DNA of 64,000 bases, taken from NCBI GenBank assembly GCA_030144725.1, contig JASKMD010000003.1, positions 11,203,516-11,267,515 of the forward strand, in the 5' to 3' direction. The DNA is from Haematococcus lacustris (taxonomy: Eukaryota > Chlorophyta > Chlorophyceae > Chlamydomonadales > Haematococcaceae). The notes beneath the pieces are model-generated. The model saw nothing but the letters and a program-made list of their open reading frames with translations, ran no database searches and had not been told where the DNA came from. A program made the position numbers and the translations under genes. This document shows, piece by piece, positions 14,954 through 63,814 of this stretch; the stretch's first letter is position 1, and the number at the start of each line of letters is the position of its first letter.

Positions 14954-16083
14954 TGATGGGGCCTTGAGGGAGCTGGAACTTGGTTGGGAGGCCAGCGCGC
15001 AGCAGGTAGCAGGCCAGGGGGCAGCGGGGGAGCGGGAACAGCAAGGCAGGGATGCGGAGGAGCGGCCCCCCGAGGAGGTGCAAGGCAGCCAGCCGCCTCG
15101 CTGGCTGGACGCCTCCGCCAGGGCGCACCAGCGGCCCTTGCCGCAGGAGAGGGCGGCCGAGCAGGCTGAGCAACAGCTAAAGGCCCAGCAGCGGCGTGAG
15201 GGCAGGCGGCCAGTTGTCCAGCCAGCCCCCCAGGCCGACACTGTGGACCAGCTGGCTGTGGGTGTTCAGGCGGGCCAGCCGTGTGTGAGGGTGTGGACCC
15301 CACCCTTCGCCGGGAGCATGTCATTGTGGCCTGGAGGGTGCTCCACGCCAGCCTCATGGTGGGGGCTTTGTGGGGCCACATCGTCGAAGGGGCGGCTGCC
15401 CCGGCTTCTTCCGCCTGCAGCTTGTGCCAGCCGGGGCACTTGGAGACCCTCACCCACGCCTTCCTGACCTGCACCGCCGTGGCCCCAGCCTGGGAGTGGG
15501 TGTTGGACGTGTTCGGCCGTCTCACAGGCACCCGCCCCCCCTCGGGCGACGCCATGCTGCTCCTCAGTGGGCGCCCCACCCGCAGTGAGGCCACTCCTTT
15601 CCAGCCCCCTGACAGCCTGTTGTGGCTCCGGCTGCGCGTGGCCTACCCGGGCGCAGTGTGGCGCCTCCGCAACTCAGAAGCCGCTACTGCCCGGCAGCCA
15701 CAGCAGGTGGCGATGCGGGTCGTGGAGGAGGTCATCCTCGCACTCACCACGGCCGTCAAGCGTGACTGGCATCGGGTGGGGAGGGACATCCGGGTGGGCG
15801 CTGTGCCCTCCACCTGGTTCAAGGGCATGGACCCGGAGCTTGACGGCGCTCACTTCGACCAGCTGTGGCCCGAGGCAGCATGGGACTGGTTTGCCAAGCA
15901 GCCTAGGAGGGAGCGGAGGGGAGCGCAGGAGGGGGTAGAGTGGAGGGTTGGGGCAGGAGTAGAGGAGGCGGGGCAGGCAGAAGGGAGGCCTAGGCAGGGG
16001 GAGGTCAGGGAGCAGGGGGCGAATGAGCTAGTCGTTCGCCTCTCCTTGCAGGGGCCCGTCCCCTTCCCCGCCCCGCCAGCATG
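14954..16083 (+). pseudogene. LINE ORF2 C-terminal part, unit 3
   Basis: Copy of the zf-RVT region with the 13-nt deletion after about 15,296. The zinc ligands CSLC...HAFLTC are intact in the downstream frame (15,281-16,084). The G-rich 3' UTR runs to 16,362 without a gene. Confidence 0.76.
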
Positions 16084-16362
16084 AGCTGCAGGGTTGCTGC
16101 TGAGGGCTTAGGGCTTTCCGGGGGGGGGGTTAGGATGGCCTCGGGGAGCTTTGTGGGTGCCCAGGGACCGGGGGCTTAGGTGGTCTTGGTTCGGGGGCTG
16201 GGGGAGGTGTTCTAGGTTTCAGGTCGGGGGCTGGGCTAAGGCGCGTGTGGGGAGTTTTGTGGGGAGGGTCTGGGGAGGAAGCGTAGGGCTAGGGTGTAGA
16301 GCGAGGGTGTGGGGGTGTTAAGACGTTGTCCGGGACGGGGTTGACCTTTGCTTGAGGTGTAT

Positions 16363-16441
16363 AGGGTCTACCAGCCCCCGCTCCCCCACCAGCTGCCGCA
16401 ACTGCTCCGCCCCCTCGCCCCGGCTACCTACCCAGGCTTCC
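16363..16441 (-). pseudogene. Start of unit 4: inverted APE remnant, truncated
   Basis: Only the first 79 bp of a fifth unit remain; the match to the other units stops at 16,441 where a different element begins with TGTTGG. Confidence 0.7.
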
Positions 16442-16546
16442 TGTTGGAGCAAGGCATGCTAGGTTCAGCCAGCCCATCAGGGGTTGAGCTAACTGTATCT
16501 CAAGTGTGACTTCTGTTTTAGGCTCCGCTCAGTGACGTAGTGCTTT

Positions 16547-16686
16547 ACTGTGTTTGTCCGGTGAAGCGCTGCCTCTTAGCGAGAGCCTCTTTCTCTTTCA
16601 GGTGGGCTTTATACTTGCTATAGTGTGTAACTGTGTTTGTCCGGTGAAGCGCTGCCTCTTAGCGAGAGCCTCTTTCTCTTTCAGGT
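16547..16686 (+). repeat. 57-bp direct repeat, period 83, each ending in a splice-acceptor-like tract
   Basis: Identical 57-bp blocks lie at 16,547-16,603 and 16,630-16,686. Each ends in CTCTTTCTCTTTCAG followed by GT, i.e. a strong 3' splice-site-like tract directly abutting a possible donor. They lie upstream of the gag-like start. Confidence 0.85.
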
Positions 16687-16704
16687 TATGGGCCCACGGC
16701 ACGG

Positions 16705-16823
16705 GTGCCGTTGGTGAAATCAGAGGCAGACGTCAGCGCTCCAGCCGAGCAGCCACAGATGGCGCTCGTTATGCCACAGCCGTTGCCCCTGAATGAAGCC
16801 ACTTCGTTTGTCGAGTGGCGACT
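16705..16823 (+). other. Truncated gag-like N-terminus before the gap
   Basis: The frame contains ATGGCGCTCGT (16,759) encoding MALVMPQPLPL..., preceded by a PAEQPQ-like segment. The same context (AVQP then MALVTM) starts the main ORF at 18,073. It could be the gag start of a related nested copy or an alternative first exon; the gap prevents a decision. Confidence 0.4.
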
Positions 16824-17323
16824 NNNNNNNNNNNNNNNNNNNNNNNNNNNNNNNNNNNNNNNNNNNNNNNNNNNNNNNNNNNNNNNNNNNNNNNNNNNNN
16901 NNNNNNNNNNNNNNNNNNNNNNNNNNNNNNNNNNNNNNNNNNNNNNNNNNNNNNNNNNNNNNNNNNNNNNNNNNNNNNNNNNNNNNNNNNNNNNNNNNNN
17001 NNNNNNNNNNNNNNNNNNNNNNNNNNNNNNNNNNNNNNNNNNNNNNNNNNNNNNNNNNNNNNNNNNNNNNNNNNNNNNNNNNNNNNNNNNNNNNNNNNNN
17101 NNNNNNNNNNNNNNNNNNNNNNNNNNNNNNNNNNNNNNNNNNNNNNNNNNNNNNNNNNNNNNNNNNNNNNNNNNNNNNNNNNNNNNNNNNNNNNNNNNNN
17201 NNNNNNNNNNNNNNNNNNNNNNNNNNNNNNNNNNNNNNNNNNNNNNNNNNNNNNNNNNNNNNNNNNNNNNNNNNNNNNNNNNNNNNNNNNNNNNNNNNNN
17301 NNNNNNNNNNNNNNNNNNNNNNN
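16824..17323. other. Assembly gap, exactly 500 N
   Basis: Run of 500 N, a scaffolding placeholder of unknown true size. ORFs through it are meaningless. Confidence 0.99.
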
Positions 17324-18072
17324 CATGAGCGTGACCGTACGGAATGCGTGACATGGCTAGCCATGCAAGCATGACAGTTGGTGGTATCACGGTAGATGGT
17401 GATTGGTGTATGATGGTTGATGTGACCTGGCTACTGTGGGTGGGTTTGTGTGTGTATCCTGCGACTTGCATAACAGTTCTGACATGGTTGCATGGGGGTT
17501 TGGGTATTTGTAGTGGATTGGGATGCTGCGGCGGCAGCTTAGAAGACCTTACCAGCTGTCCGATGTAATCACGGGCACCCAAGTCTGGAGGTATTCTCAG
17601 CTCACTGCCATCGGCATCTGAAGGCCGGCACCATACTGGTGACGGGTATCAGCTTTGCCTTGCTTGCTGCTAGTCGAGGCGTCCTTACTCATTCCGTTTG
17701 CTATCTTACATTTCTTCTAAGCTCTTTTCCCCGGAGGAAGGTTATCAATTGCCTTCAGCTGTCGACAGACGGACGTCTGGGCGTCAGCATCTTCACTTCG
17801 GCTGCAGTCCTGGGCACTCCGGGGTGTTCAGGCTGCAGCCAACCGTAGCTCTGCGGTGCGTGTTTCTTCAACACGTTCGCCCAGTGCATTAGCGCTTACA
17901 TCCGCATTCGTGCTTGCGCGAGGTGGCTGCCATTACTCAGCCGCCTGTACTGGGCACACCGTTGGAGCTTAACGGACCGTACAGCTCCACGGACAACCCA
18001 GTCTTCGACGCAGCAGCACCGCCCCAGGTTCCAGCCCCAGCCCCAGCCCGCAGCAGCCGAGCAGTACAGCCC
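17324..18072 (+). other. Region between gap and gag ATG
   Basis: No gene recognised. The gag frame is open upstream to about 17,914 but without ATG; presumably leader or an upstream exon of the retroelement. Confidence 0.4.
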
Positions 18073-42865: not shown

Positions 42866-43005
42866 GGTTCAAAAGCCCAGGGTCAGGCTGGGATGTGGGA
42901 CGTGCAGGTCGGCAGGGCAGGCTGGCAGATGCTGAGATCAGAGATGGTCAACTGCGTTCTGCCAGGCGTGGCCTGTATGATGCCCAGGTTGGTGCACGTT
43001 GGTTG

Positions 43006-43500
43006 CCCGCCCCGCCCCGCCCCGCCCCGCCCCGCCCCGCCCCGCCCCGCCCCGCCCCGCCCCGCCCCGCCCCGCCCCGCCCCGCCCCGCCCCGCCCCGC
43101 CCCGCCCCGCCCCGCCCCGCCCCGCCCCGCCCCGCCCCGCCCCGCCCCGCCCCGCCCCGCCCCGCCCCGCCCCGCCCCGCCCCGCCCCGCCCCGCCCCGC
43201 CCCGCCCCGCCCCGCCCCGCCCCGCCCCGCCCCGCCCCGCCCCGCCCCGCCCCGCCCCGCCCCGCCCCGCCCCGCCCCGCCCCGCCCCGCCCCGCCCCGC
43301 CCCGCCCCGCCCCGCCCCGCCCCGCCCCGCCCCGCCCCGCCCCGCCCCGCCCCGCCCCGCCCCGCCCCGCCCCGCCCCGCCCCGCCCCGCCCCGCCCCGC
43401 CCCGCCCCGCCCCGCCCCGCCCCGCCCCGCCCCGCCCCGCCCCGCCCCGCCCCGCCCCGCCCCGCCCCGCCCCGCCCCGCCCCGCCCCGCCCCGCCCCGC
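43006..43500. repeat. (CCCCG)n pentamer array, runs into the gap
   Basis: 99 perfect pentamers ending exactly at the gap; corresponds to the first part of the array at 49,526. The contig evidently ended because this repeat could not be resolved. Confidence 0.97.
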
Positions 43501-44000
43501 NNNNNNNNNNNNNNNNNNNNNNNNNNNNNNNNNNNNNNNNNNNNNNNNNNNNNNNNNNNNNNNNNNNNNNNNNNNNNNNNNNNNNNNNNNNNNNNNNNNN
43601 NNNNNNNNNNNNNNNNNNNNNNNNNNNNNNNNNNNNNNNNNNNNNNNNNNNNNNNNNNNNNNNNNNNNNNNNNNNNNNNNNNNNNNNNNNNNNNNNNNNN
43701 NNNNNNNNNNNNNNNNNNNNNNNNNNNNNNNNNNNNNNNNNNNNNNNNNNNNNNNNNNNNNNNNNNNNNNNNNNNNNNNNNNNNNNNNNNNNNNNNNNNN
43801 NNNNNNNNNNNNNNNNNNNNNNNNNNNNNNNNNNNNNNNNNNNNNNNNNNNNNNNNNNNNNNNNNNNNNNNNNNNNNNNNNNNNNNNNNNNNNNNNNNNN
43901 NNNNNNNNNNNNNNNNNNNNNNNNNNNNNNNNNNNNNNNNNNNNNNNNNNNNNNNNNNNNNNNNNNNNNNNNNNNNNNNNNNNNNNNNNNNNNNNNNNNN
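43501..44000. other. Assembly gap, exactly 500 N
   Basis: Placeholder gap between two contigs whose ends are the same 6-kb sequence. Confidence 0.99.
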
Positions 44001-47000: not shown

Positions 47001-50000
47001 AGCTAGGAACCATCCAGGGTCCCTCCCCAATCCTTCGTTGTTCTCTGCGCTGCAGCCCCGAGCTTGCTGAGCAATTGATGGATAGCTTCCCAGGCCTGAC
47101 TTCCCTAGCCCTTCACGGCTACTCCATCCCCTGCAATGGTCTGGCCAGCATGCTCTCCCACCCGCAGCTAAACCTGCAGCTGCAGCAGCTGGACCTCAGC
47201 AGCACCATCATTACCCAGCCCAAGCAGCCTGAGCCAGGAGCCGTTACCCTGGCCAACCTGTTTTGTGCATCCAGGCTCAAGCAGCTGAGCCTGTTGATCA
47301 TCAACATGGCTGACGGACTAAACAAGCCCCTCCTGCCCAACCTGCAGCCAGTGTCCCAGCACCTGACACAGCTGTGCCTCATGCAGGGGGCAGGTGCGTT
47401 TTTTACCTTCGACAAGTACACTGCAGCACTGCAGCCCCTGGCTCAGCTGCAGGTGCTGACATTTCTCGCTGTAATTACATGTGTGGTCTGACTGAGCTGC
47501 TGCAGGCGTTGCCTCAGCTGCACACCCTGCAGCTGCCTGACGCAACAGTCTATGGGCAGAGGGAGCTGGACACACTGCTGGCAGCCACCCAGCTTACCAG
47601 CATCCAGCTTAAATCAGTGACAAGGCTTTCCGGCGCACGTGCATATGAGCCCTGCAGCTGGCAGCAACTGGAGCCAAGAGGCTATGTTGACTGCTCCTCT
47701 GCGGCACACCTGCCGCTGCACACCCTCACCCAGCCCCTGGTGCTGGAAGAGCTTCAATTCTGTGTCAATGACTTGCACCTGGTGGCAGCTGCAGTCCATA
47801 ACTTGACGCAGACTTGCAAGGTGCCAGTGAAGATCAAGATCTTGCGGCTGGACATGTTTGTCATGTCGGACACCCCCGTCATGGCCGCACATCAGCATGT
47901 CAAGTTGCAGCAGCTGGTGGCAGAGCTGCAAGCGTTGAAGCACTGCATCTGGGGAACGGTGTCTGTGGCATCCATGGATGTGGGCGCAGCGGATGTTGCG
48001 ACACTGGCGCCCTTGTGTCAGGGCCGCACACACCTTGACTTCTCTTATGGCAGCCTGACCCCCTCCCTGGAGTTCTGGCGCCAGCTGGTGCAGCTCATGC
48101 CCACCGTCACTCACCTCACATTTTCATATGCAGACGGTTCCGCCTCGGCAGCCATGTGTGAGTCACTGCAGCTCATGACCCAGCAGCCCTGGGCCCGGTG
48201 GCTGGACATTTGCATTTCGCGGCCATCAAGCTCATATAGGTTGCCTGCATGCTGGCGGGCCAGCCCCCTTTCCCAGCCGGGCAAGCTCAGGGTGTGGTTC
48301 AAGTCATGAGCGCATGAGACACAGGTGTGTGCATCCCTGCCAGGTGCAGCAACAACCAGGATATGCTTTGCATGCAGGTGCATGGGCAGCCTCAACCATG
48401 TGTTCCAACAGCAGTGTGTGCCTTGCTAGTGATGTGAGGGGTGGCAGGAGACTATGTTCATCATTGTGTGGTGTGGCCCTTGTACGCACAGATACACATT
48501 GAGAAATTGCCAGAGTGGTTTACACGCAGACGCATGGGCGGCCTAGAACATGTGCAAAATGCAGTGTGTGCCTTGCTGTTGATGTGACATGATCAGTACT
48601 GTGGTGCTTTCATACAGGTTATGTGGTTTGGCACTAGGCCGGCTGCTGAAGGCTTTAACCTGTTTTTTATTGTATCAGACTTCAGCCTCTGAGCCTGGAT
48701 GTCAGCTCGCGTGCGTGGTTCCTGGTGATGTAGTCATGTTGCCACAACTCACCAGCAGCAGCGTGTGGCAGCAGCAGCAGCTTGCAACATGATTCCGTCC
48801 GCCTTGTGTAAACCTTGTATGCACAGATACTACCTTGACATAATGCACATGTGACCCTCACCAGCATTGCCCACCACACCGTTAGGGCGGTTCCCCCACA
48901 AACTAATATTAGCGCTCATATTAGCTCATATCAGCTCCCGGCCAGCTCATATCAGCTCCCGATAGCTCATATCAGCTCTGATCAGCTCAGATCAGCTCAT
49001 CTAAGCTCCCGGTAGAGCTCCCGCCGCTTTACCTAATATCAGCGCTAACATGGCCCTTCTTTCTCAAAATGATATGGTTCGTCCAGTCACAGCTGATGGG
49101 GTGGGAGTAGTCACAAAGTCTGCTACATTGCTAGTGGGAGGGGTGCATTGCCACAGCGGAGACACTAACTGTACCTCACTATCTCAGAAACATAAGCTGC
49201 ACCTCAAACTGCCAGCATCCTCCACAATTTCATCCCTCACCCTCACCATGTTGCACAGTGGCTGCCACACCAACGCGCTGCCCACCACCCCACAGCTGCA
49301 CTCTACCGCAGCCACAGCCTCAGCAGCAGGACCCAACGAGATCCTTCTTGTGCAGCACATCATGAGCAGGGCAAGTGGCAGCTGAGGTTCAAAAGCCCAG
49401 GGTCAGGCTGGGATGTGGGACGTGCAGGTCGGCAGGGCAGGCTGGCAGATGCTGAGATCAGAGATGGTCAACTGCGTTCTGCCAGGCGTGGCCTGTATGA
49501 TGCCCAGGTTGGTGCACGTTGGTTGCCCGCCCCGCCCCGCCCCGCCCCGCCCCGCCCCGCCCCGCCCCGCCCCGCCCCGCCCCGCCCCGCCCCGCCCCGC
49601 CCCGCCCCGCCCCGCCCCGCCCCGCCCCGCCCCGCCCCGCCCCGCCCCGCCCCGCCCCGCCCCGCCCCGCCCCGCCCCGCCCCGCCCCGCCCCGCCCCGC
49701 CCCGCCCCGCCCCGCCCCGCCCCGCCCCGCCCCGCCCCGCCCCGCCCCGCCCCGCCCCGCCCCGCCCCGCCCCGCCCCGCCCCGCCCCGCCCCGCCCCGC
49801 CCCGCCCCGCCCCGCCCCGCCCCGCCCCGCCCCGCCCCGCCCCGCCCCGCCCCGCCCCGCCCCGCCCCGCCCCGCCCCGCCCCGCCCCGCCCCGCCCCGC
49901 CCCGCCCCGCCCCGCCCCGCCCCGCCCCGCCCCGCCCCGCCCCGCCCCGCCCCGCCCCGCCCCGCCCCGCCCCGCCCCGCCCCGCCCCGCCCCGCCCCGC

Positions 50001-50020
50001 CCCGCCCCGCCCCGCCCCGC
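44001..50020. repeat. 6,020-bp segment, second copy of 37,481-43,500
   Basis: Identical in all landmarks to the first copy at an offset of 6,520. The copies of the foldback (44,315-44,657), SINE (45,571-45,756), MITE (45,877-46,010) and F-box/LRR pseudogene (46,565-48,309) all lie here, frameshift included. Confidence 0.95.
46565..48309 (+). pseudogene. F-box/LRR-like gene with frameshift, second (probably artefactual) copy
   Basis: Same sequence as 40,045-41,789, with the same frameshift (first frame ends at 47,491). Probably the same locus assembled twice. Confidence 0.8.
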
Positions 50021-52280
50021 CCCGCCCCGCCCCGCCCCGCCCCGCCCCGCCCCGCCCCGCCCCGCCCCGCCCCGCCCCGCCCCGCCCCGCCCCGCCCCGC
50101 CCCGCCCCGCCCCGCCCCGCCCCGCCCCGCCCCGCCCCGCCCCGCCCCGCCCCGCCCCGCCCCGCCCCGCCCCGCCCCGCCCCGCCCCGCCCCGCCCCGC
50201 CCCGCCCCGCCCCGCCCCGCCCCGCCCCGCCCCGCCCCGCCCCGCCCCGCCCCGCCCCGCCCCGCCCCGCCCCGCCCCGCCCCGCCCCGCCCCGCCCCGC
50301 CCCGCCCCGCCCCGCCCCGCCCCGCCCCGCCCCGCCCCGCCCCGCCCCGCCCCGCCCCGCCCCGCCCCGCCCCGCCCCGCCCCGCCCCGCCCCGCCCCGC
50401 CCCGCCCCGCCCCGCCCCGCCCCGCCCCGCCCCGCCCCGCCCCGCCCCGCCCCGCCCCGCCCCGCCCCGCCCCGCCCCGCCCCGCCCCGCCCCGCCCCGC
50501 CCCGCCCCGCCCCGCCCCGCCCCGCCCCGCCCCGCCCCGCCCCGCCCCGCCCCGCCCCGCCCCGCCCCGCCCCGCCCCGCCCCGCCCCGCCCCGCCCCGC
50601 CCCGCCCCGCCCCGCCCCGCCCCGCCCCGCCCCGCCCCGCCCCGCCCCGCCCCGCCCCGCCCCGCCCCGCCCCGCCCCGCCCCGCCCCGCCCCGCCCCGC
50701 CCCGCCCCGCCCCGCCCCGCCCCGCCCCGCCCCGCCCCGCCCCGCCCCGCCCCGCCCCGCCCCGCCCCGCCCCGCCCCGCCCCGCCCCGCCCCGCCCCGC
50801 CCCGCCCCGCCCCGCCCCGCCCCGCCCCGCCCCGCCCCGCCCCGCCCCGCCCCGCCCCGCCCCGCCCCGCCCCGCCCCGCCCCGCCCCGCCCCGCCCCGC
50901 CCCGCCCCGCCCCGCCCCGCCCCGCCCCGCCCCGCCCCGCCCCGCCCCGCCCCGCCCCGCCCCGCCCCGCCCCGCCCCGCCCCGCCCCGCCCCGCCCCGC
51001 CCCGCCCCGCCCCGCCCCGCCCCGCCCCGCCCCGCCCCGCCCCGCCCCGCCCCGCCCCGCCCCGCCCCGCCCCGCCCCGCCCCGCCCCGCCCCGCCCCGC
51101 CCCGCCCCGCCCCGCCCCGCCCCGCCCCGCCCCGCCCCGCCCCGCCCCGCCCCGCCCCGCCCCGCCCCGCCCCGCCCCGCCCCGCCCCGCCCCGCCCCGC
51201 CCCGCCCCGCCCCGCCCCGCCCCGCCCCGCCCCGCCCCGCCCCGCCCCGCCCCGCCCCGCCCCGCCCCGCCCCGCCCCGCCCCGCCCCGCCCCGCCCCGC
51301 CCCGCCCCGCCCCGCCCCGCCCCGCCCCGCCCCGCCCCGCCCCGCCCCGCCCCGCCCCGCCCCGCCCCGCCCCGCCCCGCCCCGCCCCGCCCCGCCCCGC
51401 CCCGCCCCGCCCCGCCCCGCCCCGCCCCGCCCCGCCCCGCCCCGCCCCGCCCCGCCCCGCCCCGCCCCGCCCCGCCCCGCCCCGCCCCGCCCCGCCCCGC
51501 CCCGCCCCGCCCCGCCCCGCCCCGCCCCGCCCCGCCCCGCCCCGCCCCGCCCCGCCCCGCCCCGCCCCGCCCCGCCCCGCCCCGCCCCGCCCCGCCCCGC
51601 CCCGCCCCGCCCCGCCCCGCCCCGCCCCGCCCCGCCCCGCCCCGCCCCGCCCCGCCCCGCCCCGCCCCGCCCCGCCCCGCCCCGCCCCGCCCCGCCCCGC
51701 CCCGCCCCGCCCCGCCCCGCCCCGCCCCGCCCCGCCCCGCCCCGCCCCGCCCCGCCCCGCCCCGCCCCGCCCCGCCCCGCCCCGCCCCGCCCCGCCCCGC
51801 CCCGCCCCGCCCCGCCCCGCCCCGCCCCGCCCCGCCCCGCCCCGCCCCGCCCCGCCCCGCCCCGCCCCGCCCCGCCCCGCCCCGCCCCGCCCCGCCCCGC
51901 CCCGCCCCGCCCCGCCCCGCCCCGCCCCGCCCCGCCCCGCCCCGCCCCGCCCCGCCCCGCCCCGCCCCGCCCCGCCCCGCCCCGCCCCGCCCCGCCCCGC
52001 CCCGCCCCGCCCCGCCCCGCCCCGCCCCGCCCCGCCCCGCCCCGCCCCGCCCCGCCCCGCCCCGCCCCGCCCCGCCCCGCCCCGCCCCGCCCCGCCCCGC
52101 CCCGCCCCGCCCCGCCCCGCCCCGCCCCGCCCCGCCCCGCCCCGCCCCGCCCCGCCCCGCCCCGCCCCGCCCCGCCCCGCCCCGCCCCGCCCCGCCCCGC
52201 CCCGCCCCGCCCCGCCCCGCCCCGCCCCGCCCCGCCCCGCCCCGCCCCGCCCCGCCCCGCCCCGCCCCGCCCCGCCCCGC
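49526..52280. repeat. (CCCCG)n pentamer array, 2.75 kb
   Basis: 551 consecutive pentamers without any visible variant. All three forward frames read (RPAPP)n and the reverse reads (GAGRG)n, which creates spurious ORFs over 950 codons. G-rich on the minus strand, with strong G-quadruplex potential. Confidence 0.97.
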
Positions 52281-59111: not shown

Positions 59112-59118
59112 TATAAAA
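59112..59118 (+). promoter_or_regulatory. TATA box of the kinase-GTase-ligase gene
   Basis: TATAAAA 67 bp upstream of ATG 59,185, a fitting distance for a core promoter with a 5' UTR of about 40 nt. Confidence 0.6.
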
Positions 59119-59184: not shown

Positions 59185-62100
59185 ATGGCTAGCAGCAGCG
59201 TAGGCCCCGGGGAAACCCGCGGCGTCGTTCTGCTGATCGGTGCGCCAGGCGTCGGCAAGACCTGCCTTGCCAGGGCGATGGTGGCGCAGCAGGCCGCGAA
59301 GGGCGGCAGTGGCGGAGCGCCGCTCTTTTTCAGCGTCGGCGAGAGGCTCCGGGCCGATGGGCTGCTAGCCAAGCACGTCGCACCCGACGAGCGAGCTGCG
59401 TGCGCCGAGACAATGCGCGCCACCGCGCGGGACCTAATCAGTCGGAAACTGCACGCGCTTGGCCAGCGGTGGGCTGGGGCACGCGACCGCACCAGCACGC
59501 GATTTTTATGTACGCTCCTGTCTTGCACTGCAATCACTTGAGCCACTCTGTGGGCTGCGACCTCGAGCGCTGCTGGACTCCGTCTGGTGCTGCAGGGTGC
59601 TGGTATTGGAAGCGGTGAAGGACAGGGAGGGCGCTGATGACCTGGCCGAGCTTCTAGAGCAGCATAGTGTGCCTCTTCTGCAGGTGGGCGAGCCCTCCCT
59701 CCCATGCAGGAGGACATTGAGGCTGACACAGGAGCAGCTCCACTAGCTAGGGAGAACGGCGCATGCACACCGTGGATAGCAGTCACTCAGGCAGCCCATA
59801 GCTGGTGTAGCAGCAACCGCCAGCCACACCCTTCCATTACTAGCAGGTCAGGGTGCATAGGCTGTCACTGCTGTCTTAGCCTATGGGTTCCAGCATAGGC
59901 CACGACTTCTGTGGCATCCAGCCATCCCTGCTGAAGTACATGCCACTTTGTGCATGACGTGTTGTGTTGTGCTGACCGCTGTTTCCACGGCAGGTACAAG
60001 AAGCAGACATAGCACCTTTCTTGCAGACATACTGTTCCACTTCCGTGTCACATTGTACAGGAAGTGTTGTGTTGTGCTTGCAAAGATGCCGATTTCCATG
60101 CATGTTGCATGGTGTATGGCTGGTGCAGTGGTTGGTGTGATGCGACAGGCAGACCAACTTGCTGCCCATTCCCTCCTGTAGCAGCAGCTGTGGTGGCTTG
60201 AGAAGGCCCTTGGCATCGGATGGGCTGGTGGTCAAGGTGGGCCGCCTGCCCACTCCATGTATGGCCACCCTCAGGTGCTGTACCTGCCTCATGACGTGTC
60301 GTCAGCTGTGGCCACCTGGGGCTTCGGGGAGTCCCGGCAGCGTGACGCAGAGCACCAGGTGGCTGAGCGCCAGGCCAAGTGGCAGCGGGCTGCAGGCTGG
60401 CTGCTGGAGCTGTACTCCAGCCTGGGCTGCCTGGCAGAGGTCAGCCTACTGGACACGAAGGGCGGGTCGGCACAGCAGCCATCCCTGGCTGCACTGGGCT
60501 ATGCTGCCCCTGCTCCTGAATGCAGCTGGCTGGCGGCAGCAGGCTGGGCACCACTGGGCAGGTGGAAGAAGAGCAGTGACACCAGCAGCAGCAGCAGCAG
60601 TAGCAGCAGCAGTCCAGGCAGCTCGTCTGCCGTGAGCCGCAGTTCAATGCAGCAGACCTGGCCTGGCCTGGCCATCACCCCTCTGCAGCCAGTGACCAGC
60701 TGCCGCCTGGTGAGCTGCAGCAGGGCCAGGGCGGCAGTGGTGGCTGAGGCTGAGGCGTTCACAGGACTGCACCCGCTGCCCCTGCCAGTGCCCTCCCATA
60801 GCATGACCTGCAGTGCGGATGCCCGCTGGCTGGCCTACCCTGGCCGCTACCTGGCTGCCCTGAAGGCTGACGGTGTGCGCCACCTGCTCATCACCACAGC
60901 CACAGGCCAGCCATTCCTGCTCAACAGGGCAGGGGCGCTGTACGCCTACCCAATGCAGGCAGCCCCTTCGCAATCAGCAGCAGCTGGGCAGGAGGGAGCG
61001 TTGGGCGGCAGGGCAGAGCTGGAGGGGGAGGAGGGGGAGGAGCAGCAAGCAGCCAGTGCGGGGCATATTACACTGGAGGAGGAGCTGCAGCAGCTCAGCC
61101 TGCAGGGCAGCGGGGCAGCGGAAGGTCAGGGGGCACCAGCCAGGGCCTGTGATGTTGTCGCCCTCCCTCCCGCTGCCCTGCCCCCTTGTGGCCTGCCCTG
61201 TTGCACAGTTCTCGATGGCGAGCTGGTGCTGCACGGTGGCGGTGCCCAGCCCCTGTTCCTGGTGTTTGACGCGCTGTGTGTTGCCGGCAGCCCGGTGTGG
61301 CAGCTGCCCCTCACAGCCCGCCTGCAGCACCTGGACAGCCTGGGCCTCACCACAGCCAGTGAGGCAGTCATGGGCCAACCAGCAACATCTGTGTTCACAC
61401 CTCGACCAGCCCTTAGGGTCCCCTTTCCTGCCACTGCTGCCCCCTCGCCAGCAGCTATAGCAGCAGCCCCACCACGCGGCTTTGTGAAGCAGCAGCAGGG
61501 TCCTCCTAGAGGTCAGGACACGGTGCTGGTGCTCCGCAAGCCTTGCTTCCCCGTCAGCCCCTCAGGCCTGCAGCAGCTGGAGGCGGCTGCTGAGCGCTGC
61601 GGGTTCCCTGCTGATGGGGTGGTGTTCTCCCCCTGCGCCATGAGCAGTGTGCTGGGCCAGGCGGAGCTGCTGCTCAAGTGGCAGCCACCTGGCTGTGTTG
61701 GGGTGGACGTGTTAGGCATCCATGCGGGCAGCCTGCCGCCGCACTCCTGGAGGACAATGTGGCGGTATGGATGGTTGAGCCTTGACCTCCAGAGTAAGGC
61801 ACCTGGTGCACTAGTGTGTGAGTACATGCAGTGGCAGGTGGAAGTGGAGGAGGCCAGCCATTCCAGTGCAAACAAACATGGGAAAGAGCAGCAGGGCCCA
61901 GCAAGCAGCAGGCAGCAGGGCAGCAGCAGCAAGCAGCAGGGCCCAGCGTCACAGGCCCCCCCCACCATTGTGTTGAAAGGCAACGCTTGGATCATGCGCT
62001 CTGTTCGCTTTGACAAGGTGGTGGGCAACAGCCCAGAAGCTGTCGAGAGGCTGACCCAGCAGACCTGTCTGCCCTGGCCTGACCTGGTGCTAGCAGTGCA

Positions 62101-63814
62101 GCAGCAGCAGCAGACCGCCCCACCACCCTCCGCGCTCCACACTCCAGCTCTGCAGTGCAGCGCTGTCCCACCTAACTCTGACCTTGTGCCTGCTTCCCCC
62201 ACCAGCCCCCATCCAGCCCGACTGCTGCCCTTCCCTCAGCTCCACTCCCTGGCCCTAACGGCAGTGCAGTGCGGGTCAGTGGAGGTGAGCAGCGACCCTG
62301 ACACTGGGCTGCAGGTGTTCAACTACCTGGCAGCAGCCAGCCCATGCAGCAGCCAGGCAGAGCAGCTGTGCCGCGGCCTGGTGCTGCACCCGGACTCACA
62401 AACCCTGGTCGCCACACCCTTTCCACGCTTTGCTGCAGAGCAGCAGCTGGACTCCTCACCCTGCACTGTGACAAGGGCAGCTGCAACAGCCCTAGCACCG
62501 CCTCCTGCTGGCCAGCCTTCCTCTCCTGCAGCTGCTGCAGTGCGCGCTGCAGTCAAGGTGGATGGCTCCCTGGTCATTGCCTTCCTGTGGCAGGGCCAGG
62601 TGCATGCCTGCACGCGGCGCCGCATGACCTCTGAGCAGGCCGTGTGGGCGCAGGGGCAGCTGCGGGCCAACCCAGCCTTTGTGGCGCACGCCCAGCCCGG
62701 GTGGACCTACCTGTTTGAGGCTGTGTATGTTGCCAACACACACGTCATCAGGTACCCCTTCCAGGGGCTGGTGCTGCTGGACGCCATCTGCCCAGCAGGC
62801 CTGGGCCTGGCCTCAGGGGCAGCCAAGCACGCCCTGGCCACACGCCTGGGCACTCTGGCTGCACCAGAGCTGCAGCTGCAGCAGGCTGAGGAGCTGGGCA
62901 GCTGGCTGCAGGCTGGCCAAGCCTCCTCCTCCTCCACCTCCACCCCAAACCCCGCCCCGACCCATCCTCCTGCATCTCGTCCTCTCTCCACCTCTCTCTT
63001 CTCCTTCTCGTCCTCCTCCTCCCCCACCTCCTCACTTCACACCCCATCACACCCGCCTGCATCAGAGGGCTGGGTGGTGACCCTTGGCAGTTGTGGCCAG
63101 CGCATCAAGCTAGTGCACGACAGCTTCAAGCGCGCTCACTATGAGGCCCAGCAGCTGCACCCGCTGTGTGTGTGGGACAGGGTCAGGCAGGGGGCCAGCC
63201 GCGACCAGCTACTGCCGCCCTGGATGCCCAGCCACGTGAAGGCAGAGGCAGAGGCTGTGCTGGCGGCCCTGCACCGCAGCTTCCAGGAGGTGCGGCTGCA
63301 GCACAGGGCTAAGGGGCAAGCAGTAGCTGCTCTGAAAAACGGAGGCCGTGAGCAGCAGCCCCTGAGCATGTACTACAGCGGATGGCAAGTCGTTGCCACC
63401 CCTCACCTCCGAGCCCAGCTCCTGGACCTGGTGCGGCCGGCTCATGACGGCAGTGGCCTGCCTGCCTACCAGCCCTCAGCTGCAATGGCTCAGACCTTTG
63501 CCAAGGCCTGGCCAAAGGGGCCGCTGGCGGGTCGCCTGGCGCCCAGCCCCGAGCCGGCATGCGCCATCATTCAGACGCCGCAGTTCTTTGAGCTTGTCTT
63601 GGCTGCGCTGGGTGGAATCTCAGCACTTAGGGCCATGTCAGTGTGCTGGACATGGTGCCGGCTAGTGCGAGGCTGGCCGGGCCTTGTGGCGGCCGTGGAG
63701 CAGAGCAAGGAGATGACTCGTCCTAGACGTTTCAGACCACCACCTTACCACGATGACGATGATGACTACTCTCATGGGCCCTACTATGGCTACCGCGGTT
63801 ATGGGAGTAGGTAA
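59185..63814 (+). CDS. P-loop kinase-like / mRNA guanylyltransferase-like / Rnl1-type RNA ligase / F-box-like fusion, 3 exons
   Basis: Exons 59,185-59,468, 59,596-59,683 and 60,182-63,814 join in phase with GT-AG introns to 1,334 residues. Residues 1-124: P-loop domain with GAPGVGKTCLAR and FFSVGERLRADG, like NMP/adenylate-type kinases, and a VLVLEAVKDREGADDL strand. Residues about 340-730: covalent nucleotidyltransferase of capping-enzyme type with motif I K352-A-D-G-V-R, motif III LDGELV (468), IIIa FLVFDAL, IV ADGVVFSP (about 601), V LLLKWQPP (about 623) and VI WIMRSVRFDKVVGN. Residues about 790-1,130: T4 Rnl1-type ligase with K916-V-D-G-S-L, TRRRMTSEQAVWA, TYLFEAVY, EGWVVTL and QRIKLVHDSFKRAHY. 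Residues about 1,255-1,293: F-box-like LVLAALGGISALRAMSVCWTWCRLV. Acidic and Gly/Tyr/Arg-rich end. Low-complexity Ser/Gln linkers separate the domains. The long exon 3 frame leaves no doubt that GTase and ligase are in one protein; linkage of exon 1-2 rests on matching splice phases. Confidence 0.86.

Follow-up and report, generated by a model that had tools for sequence, protein, structure and literature searches.

A candidate cap-or-seal enzyme in Haematococcus lacustris: kinase-like, guanylyltransferase and Rnl1-type ligase domains in one predicted green algal protein

TbCe1 of Trypanosoma brucei carries a P-loop in an N-terminal kinase part, and is not known to contain an RNA ligase or an F-box. 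TbCe1 is described as a cytoplasmic recapping enzyme with RNA kinase and guanylyltransferase activities, which converts decapped 5'-monophosphate RNA (pRNA) to the diphosphate (ppRNA) and then to GpppRNA; its likeness to the algal protein considered here is that kinase and guanylyltransferase stand in one chain (PMC11417388). This predicted protein of the green alga Haematococcus lacustris is encoded on the (+) strand of a 64,000-nucleotide window, the whole stretch of DNA analysed, within which all coordinates below are positions. The gene, QJQ45_010552 (deposited protein P0001; 100% identical across 98% of the query in a protein search), joins a kinase-like domain, an mRNA guanylyltransferase, an Rnl1-type RNA ligase and an F-box-like tail. 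The profile, fold and alignment comparisons described below support the identity and order of these domains, the retention of catalytic residues and the fusion's conservation among green algae.

We infer, as the sequence-only reading of this DNA had done, that the protein could heal the 5' ends of RNA and then cap or seal them. There is perhaps an even chance that a single polypeptide works on the 5'-monophosphate ends of decapped or cleaved RNA, with two outcomes, recapping or resealing. In this mechanism, the adenylate-kinase-like domain would phosphorylate pRNA to ppRNA, and the guanylyltransferase would then recap it to GpppRNA through a lysine-GMP at K321; alternatively, the Rnl1-type domain would adenylate pRNA through a lysine-AMP at K885 and join it to a 3'-OH end. 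pRNA would suit as acceptor because the algal kinase resembles enzymes that phosphorylate nucleoside monophosphates, and one substrate could meet two fates because the pRNA end is also what an Rnl1-type ligase works on. The F-box-like tail may tie the protein to SKP1 and cullin, for turnover or location. The fuller proposal is held more tentatively, at somewhat less than an even chance: a chlorophyte cap-or-seal enzyme for 5'-monophosphate ends, composed of a TbCe1-like recapping half and a captured bacterial Rnl1-type ligase, with SKP1–cullin–F-box (SCF) control through the tail and a C-terminal YGS peptide. If correct, it would extend cytoplasmic recapping by a dedicated kinase-guanylyltransferase from trypanosomes to green algae, and link recapping to RNA ligation and perhaps to ubiquitin signalling. 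It would also show clearly how a eukaryotic enzyme of RNA ends came to include a bacterial RNA-repair enzyme, one that can still be recognised from the opening box to the closing one.

Relation to described capping enzymes and RNA ligases

Metazoan and plant capping enzymes (RNGTT/Mce1) and fungal guanylyltransferases have the same guanylyltransferase fold, motifs I-VI and PF01331 as the algal protein. Unlike RNGTT/Mce1, the latter yields no RNA triphosphatase domain in Pfam scans and has a kinase and a ligase fused instead. Ordinary capping enzymes are distant relatives, with just four in one of the protein searches, three at 4e-14 to 7e-10 and one at 0.93. The ligase module shares its adenylylation domain with T4 Rnl1 and with bacterial Rnl1-like ligases (PF09511) from Methylobacterium (L013-L015), Caulobacteraceae (L016), Rhodopila (L017) and Obscuribacterales (L018), and the bacterial proteins also have its start box and an end box resembling RP..G.L.GY.PS. 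The bacterial ligases examined stand alone (379, 373 and 396 amino acids in L013, L017 and L018), whereas the algal module forms part of a larger enzyme and contains inserts. Each domain is thus known singly, as is the pairing of kinase and guanylyltransferase; the novel part would be the added full Rnl1-type ligase and F-box-like tail. No description of a single chain with two complete covalent nucleotidyltransferases that differ in specificity was found in the open-licence PMC literature, where absence is weak evidence.

Fungal Trl1 and plant RNL tRNA ligases consist of a ligase, then a Pnk-type kinase, then a phosphodiesterase. An RNA repair or splicing ligase of this sort is the strongest rival to the cap-or-seal reading: the P-loop domain would phosphorylate a 5'-OH, the Rnl1-type domain would seal, and the guanylyltransferase would be an accessory that guards ends or caps the product. 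The algal protein differs, however, in domain order and kinase type, and has the guanylyltransferase and F-box-like region besides. Its kinase is N-terminal and adenylate-kinase-like, with SxGxxLR, a motif expected for a 5'-monophosphate acceptor, and neither phosphodiesterase nor phosphatase families appeared in the Pfam scans. A 5'-OH repair enzyme is therefore regarded as somewhat unlikely, though a serious competitor.

Gene model and reading frame

The sequence-only reading had placed two nucleotidyltransferase motif sets in one frame of 1,185 codons. The single frame stands: both sets lie within one open exon-3 frame, and the remaining five frames across exon 3 contain 24-40 stops each. 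The length needed revision, to 1,210 codons between 60182 and the stop at 63814. The same reading spliced the P-loop exons to this frame through two introns; the exon 2 borders are borne out by the copy alignment, but the intron-2 acceptor at 60181 is not. The start codon at 59185, both exon 2 borders (GT-AG kept) and an acceptor at 60274 occur in all seven aligned copies, whereas 60181 is deleted in three (L021, L024, L027). These seven, aligned over their upstream parts, are the window's own copy (L020) and paralogs L021, L024, L025, L027, L029 and L031, drawn from 13 copies on contigs C175, C518 and C333. Exon 3 is therefore assigned to 60275-63814, which makes 31 residues of the earlier model intronic; the junction from acceptor 60274 joins VPLLQ to VLYLP, with QVL invariant in the seven-sequence protein alignment. 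In the resulting protein of 1,303 residues, the catalytic lysines are numbered K321 and K885 (formerly K352 and K916).

Copy alignment and translation place the start codon, the P-loop GAPGVGKT (59239-59262) and SVGERLR (59332-59352) in exon 1 (59185..59468). Exon 2 (59596..59683), defined by copy alignment and its GT-AG borders, encodes the LVLEAVKD strand of the kinase-like domain, and exon 3 (60275..63814), defined by its open frame and copy alignment, contains the end of the kinase domain, the guanylyltransferase, the ligase, the F-box-like tail and the stop. A TATAAA sequence at 59112..59117, 73 bases 5' of the start codon, is a possible core promoter; it is kept in three of the seven copies (L020, L029, L031) and altered in four. 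In the deposited model P0001 the N-terminus is probably erroneous, since it joins an upstream gene and enters the window gene inside the P-loop; P0004 and P0006 start at the equivalent of 59185. The upstream gene fused in P0001 lies before about 58100 and looks leucine-rich-repeat-like by eye.

This apparent misfusion raises the question of whether the two nucleotidyltransferase domains are themselves neighbouring genes fused by annotation. Against it stand the single open frame of exon 3, the stop-free long matches in paralogs L021 and L024, and the occurrence of all domains in single predicted proteins elsewhere (P0029-P0031, P0043-P0049, P0051 and P0053), so that this explanation is scarcely credible. 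A division of exon 3 between two genes, close to one of the two outcomes that the sequence-only reading had named as refuting it, is unlikely on the same stop-free matches and the same domain order in single predicted proteins of other algae and metagenomes. The other such outcome, a profile placement of either domain outside the guanylyltransferase/ligase superfamily, did not arise.

Domains and the origin of the ligase

The first motif set comprises KADGVR (K321), LDGEL, ADGVVF, LKWQP and WIMRSVRFDK. It provides the KxDGxR motif I, motifs III-V and RxDK motif VI of guanylyltransferases, together with their fold, and profile and fold searches place the domain with mRNA guanylyltransferases, in agreement with the sequence-only assignment. 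PF01331 matches the window protein at 2.5e-9, above its cut-off, and relatives have the same motif order, so the motif sets exceed chance. A search of the H. lacustris genome with PF01331 at the default threshold gave no match, a result that is uninformative since it missed the window gene as well. In the family alignment, motif I (LKADGVRHLL, with K321) lies at 60860..60889, motifs III and IIIa (TVLDGEL, LFLVFDAL) at 61205..61276, motifs IV and V (FPADGVVF, LLKWQP) at 61604..61687, and motif VI (SVRFDK) at 62000..62017.

The kinase-like domain shows a GxPGxGKS/T P-loop, SxGxxLR and an adenylate kinase fold by family alignment, profile and fold searches, which upholds its earlier description as nucleoside monophosphate (NMP) kinase-like. 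PF00406 exceeds its Pfam cut-off in P0029 and reaches E<=0.001 in nine of 12 compact relatives; in the window's exon-1 piece it falls below threshold and other P-loop families score higher. The last conserved block, AERQAKW, lies at 60362..60382 in the family alignment. True adenylate kinases feature a DGFPR loop. By eye, the alignment shows no such loop in this domain and an LExVK-like block at its place; the domain is therefore not classed as a true adenylate kinase. As a negative control, comparison of the kinase and ligase profiles gave a probability of 0.05%.

The second motif set, KVDGSL (K885), GWTYLFEAVY, EGWVV and RIKLV, belongs to an Rnl1-type module that has an adenylylation domain with KxDG, an N-terminal CRG..PF region, and EGW and K motifs. 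Profile and fold searches place it with T4 Rnl1, as had been proposed from the sequence; the family profile was required, since the window's own ligase piece, searched as a single sequence, matched nothing in Pfam (PF09511 included) or the PDB. The module begins with an HPARLLPF box (62210..62233), followed by a CRGLVLHP box of the adenylylation domain (62369..62392), located by the family-profile PDB search. Family alignment then gives motif I (VKVDGSLVIAF, with K885) at 62552..62584, motif IIIa (GWTYLFEAVY) at 62699..62728, and motifs IV and V (SEGWVV, RIKLV) at 63062..63142. The module ends with an RP..DG..L..Y.PS box (63428..63478). Profile alignment shows that both the opening and closing boxes are common to the bacterial ligases.

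In HHalign, the algal modules (25 supplied, 23 kept by the filter) aligned with the six bacterial proteins over 366 columns at 27% identity and probability 100; this pairwise comparison used no background database, so the PDB search with the family profile weighs more. Five of the six bacterial proteins have HPAR as their start box, and L018 has HKAR; of the 25 algal modules, 13 have HPAR and one (P0006) has HSAR, and the search found no start box in the other 11, mostly compact metagenomic ones. The end box RP..G...Y.PS was part of the choice of the 25 algal modules and is present in them all; the six bacterial proteins have it in altered form. An unknown conserved domain between ligase and F-box was considered and rejected, the closing box belonging to the ligase module by the bacterial comparison. 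Judged by these alignments, the ligase is bacterial-type along nearly its whole length.

Relatives of the ligase were found at the six bacterial loci (30-34% identity) and on twelve viral contigs (25-31% identity); PF09511 matched both of the viral relatives scanned, two being the whole sample. In a small FastTree phylogeny, built from 12 algal and six bacterial sequences with 11 of the 12 viral ones, the algal ligases adjoin the bacterial ones with support 0.90. A plain reading is that an ancestral green alga captured a whole bacterial-type ligase, while transfer in the reverse direction, from alga to bacteria, is still conceivable. Acquisition of the gene from a giant virus of algae would be in keeping with the frequent viral insertions in chlorophyte genomes and with viral structure models, named as capping enzymes or RNA ligases, that match single domains; the 50 viral matches listed, named as RNA ligases, capping enzymes and others, leave room for a viral fusion. 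However, 2.9 million viral contigs, scanned by two short peptide patterns with limited reach, gave with the family alignment one locus, L019, with 28% identity to a part of the guanylyltransferase (query residues 265-385). The grouping of the ligase with bacterial rather than phage ligases in the small tree, the introns of the window gene and its presence in several named algae also make a viral source very improbable.

Distribution in green algae and constraint among genomic copies

Three protein searches yielded 53 family proteins once P0013 and four ordinary capping enzymes (P0055-P0058) were set aside; about 8,000 candidates were scored per search, so absence elsewhere is weak evidence. 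The named hosts are all green algae: H. lacustris, Chlamydomonas reinhardtii, Edaphochlamys, Gonium, Tetrabaena, Volvox (a partial model), Pleodorina, Micractinium and Chlamydomonas sp. UWO 241. The fusion thus recurs in several named chlorophytes, where the sequence-only reading had suggested looking for it. The set also includes two EukProt entries (P0021, P0028) and many metagenomic proteins, the latter known as predicted proteins. The C. reinhardtii member, Cre12.g524850, makes the idea directly testable in a genetic model. Selecting for both a P-loop and the closing ligase box retained 21 of the 53, and all 21 have the NMP motif, guanylyltransferase motifs I, III, IV and VI, and ligase motifs I and IV; the guanylyltransferase motif V pattern is present in 18 and the ligase GWTY pattern in 20. 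Across all 53, many of them fragments, the P-loop occurs in 34, guanylyltransferase motif I in 45, motif VI in 44 and ligase motif I in 50. The F-box-like region (63584..63682) was located by alignment to P0029, in which Pfam F-box-like (PF12937) exceeds its cut-off; E<=0.001 is reached in six of 12 compact relatives. The C-terminal GYGSR (63797..63811) contains a YGS motif that is family-wide in the alignment and is kept in 20 of the 21 selected full-length relatives.

A six-frame search of the H. lacustris genome gave 44 matching pieces, with internal stops in several copies. On contig C175 they occupy 16 places, divided between 10.24-11.27 Mb and 20.85-21.26 Mb; eleven of these places are about 3.3-3.6 kb long, one measures 1.6 kb and the remaining four about 245 bases each. 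C518 and C333 carry further copies, and C11 has a divergent pair (L040, L041; 40-49% identity in the main pieces) at 3.147-3.151 Mb and 4.191-4.195 Mb. One deposited protein, P0013 (QJQ45_010516), combines kinase exons of the window gene with an endonuclease (PF03372) and a reverse transcriptase (PF00078), and is either a model error or an insertion of a long interspersed nuclear element (LINE). The many pieces, the stops, the residues lost from the C11 copies and the kinase exons held by this LINE-type protein would fit a window copy that is one of many decaying or redundant ones, the enzyme mattering only in other copies or algae. Yet the window copy has zero internal stops and retains every catalytic motif. 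Its whole-exon ratio of nonsynonymous to synonymous substitution (dN/dS) against seven long paralogs is 0.41-0.57, and block values against L021, L024 and L025 are 0.08-0.50 in the guanylyltransferase cores, 0.15-0.66 in the ligase cores and up to 1.18 in linkers. Constraint is thus generally stronger in the two cores than in the linkers, and decay or redundancy of this copy appears unlikely.

Several observations weigh against the cap-or-seal reading. Whole-exon dN/dS among the H. lacustris copies is just moderately low (0.41-0.64), and in the window gene the oligonucleotide-binding (OB)/linker segment, at 0.58-0.82 against L021, L024 and L025, is under little constraint. The C11 pair has Q for the guanylyltransferase lysine and, by pattern, no P-loop or motif VI, with the ligase lysine kept; the motif VI pattern is absent from copies L023 and L029, and Edaphochlamys P0014 is without the P-loop, both lysines and motif VI. 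The family therefore also yields apparent pseudoenzymes, the C11 pair having lost one catalytic lysine and P0014 both. The likeness to TbCe1 is judged by domain content, and for its P-loop part the kinase profile finds AAA ATPases and midasin with almost equal strength (from 1.1e-7). PF09511 was found in just three of 12 family ligase pieces (best 3.2e-5), and Pfam detects no F-box in the window's own protein. The same domains could, moreover, serve 5'-OH healing.

Elsewhere in the window, the repeat (CCCCG)n runs without a flaw for more than 2.5 kb, over at least 49700-52279, and about 500 N each in 16001-18000 and 43001-44000 represent assembly gaps or masked sequence.

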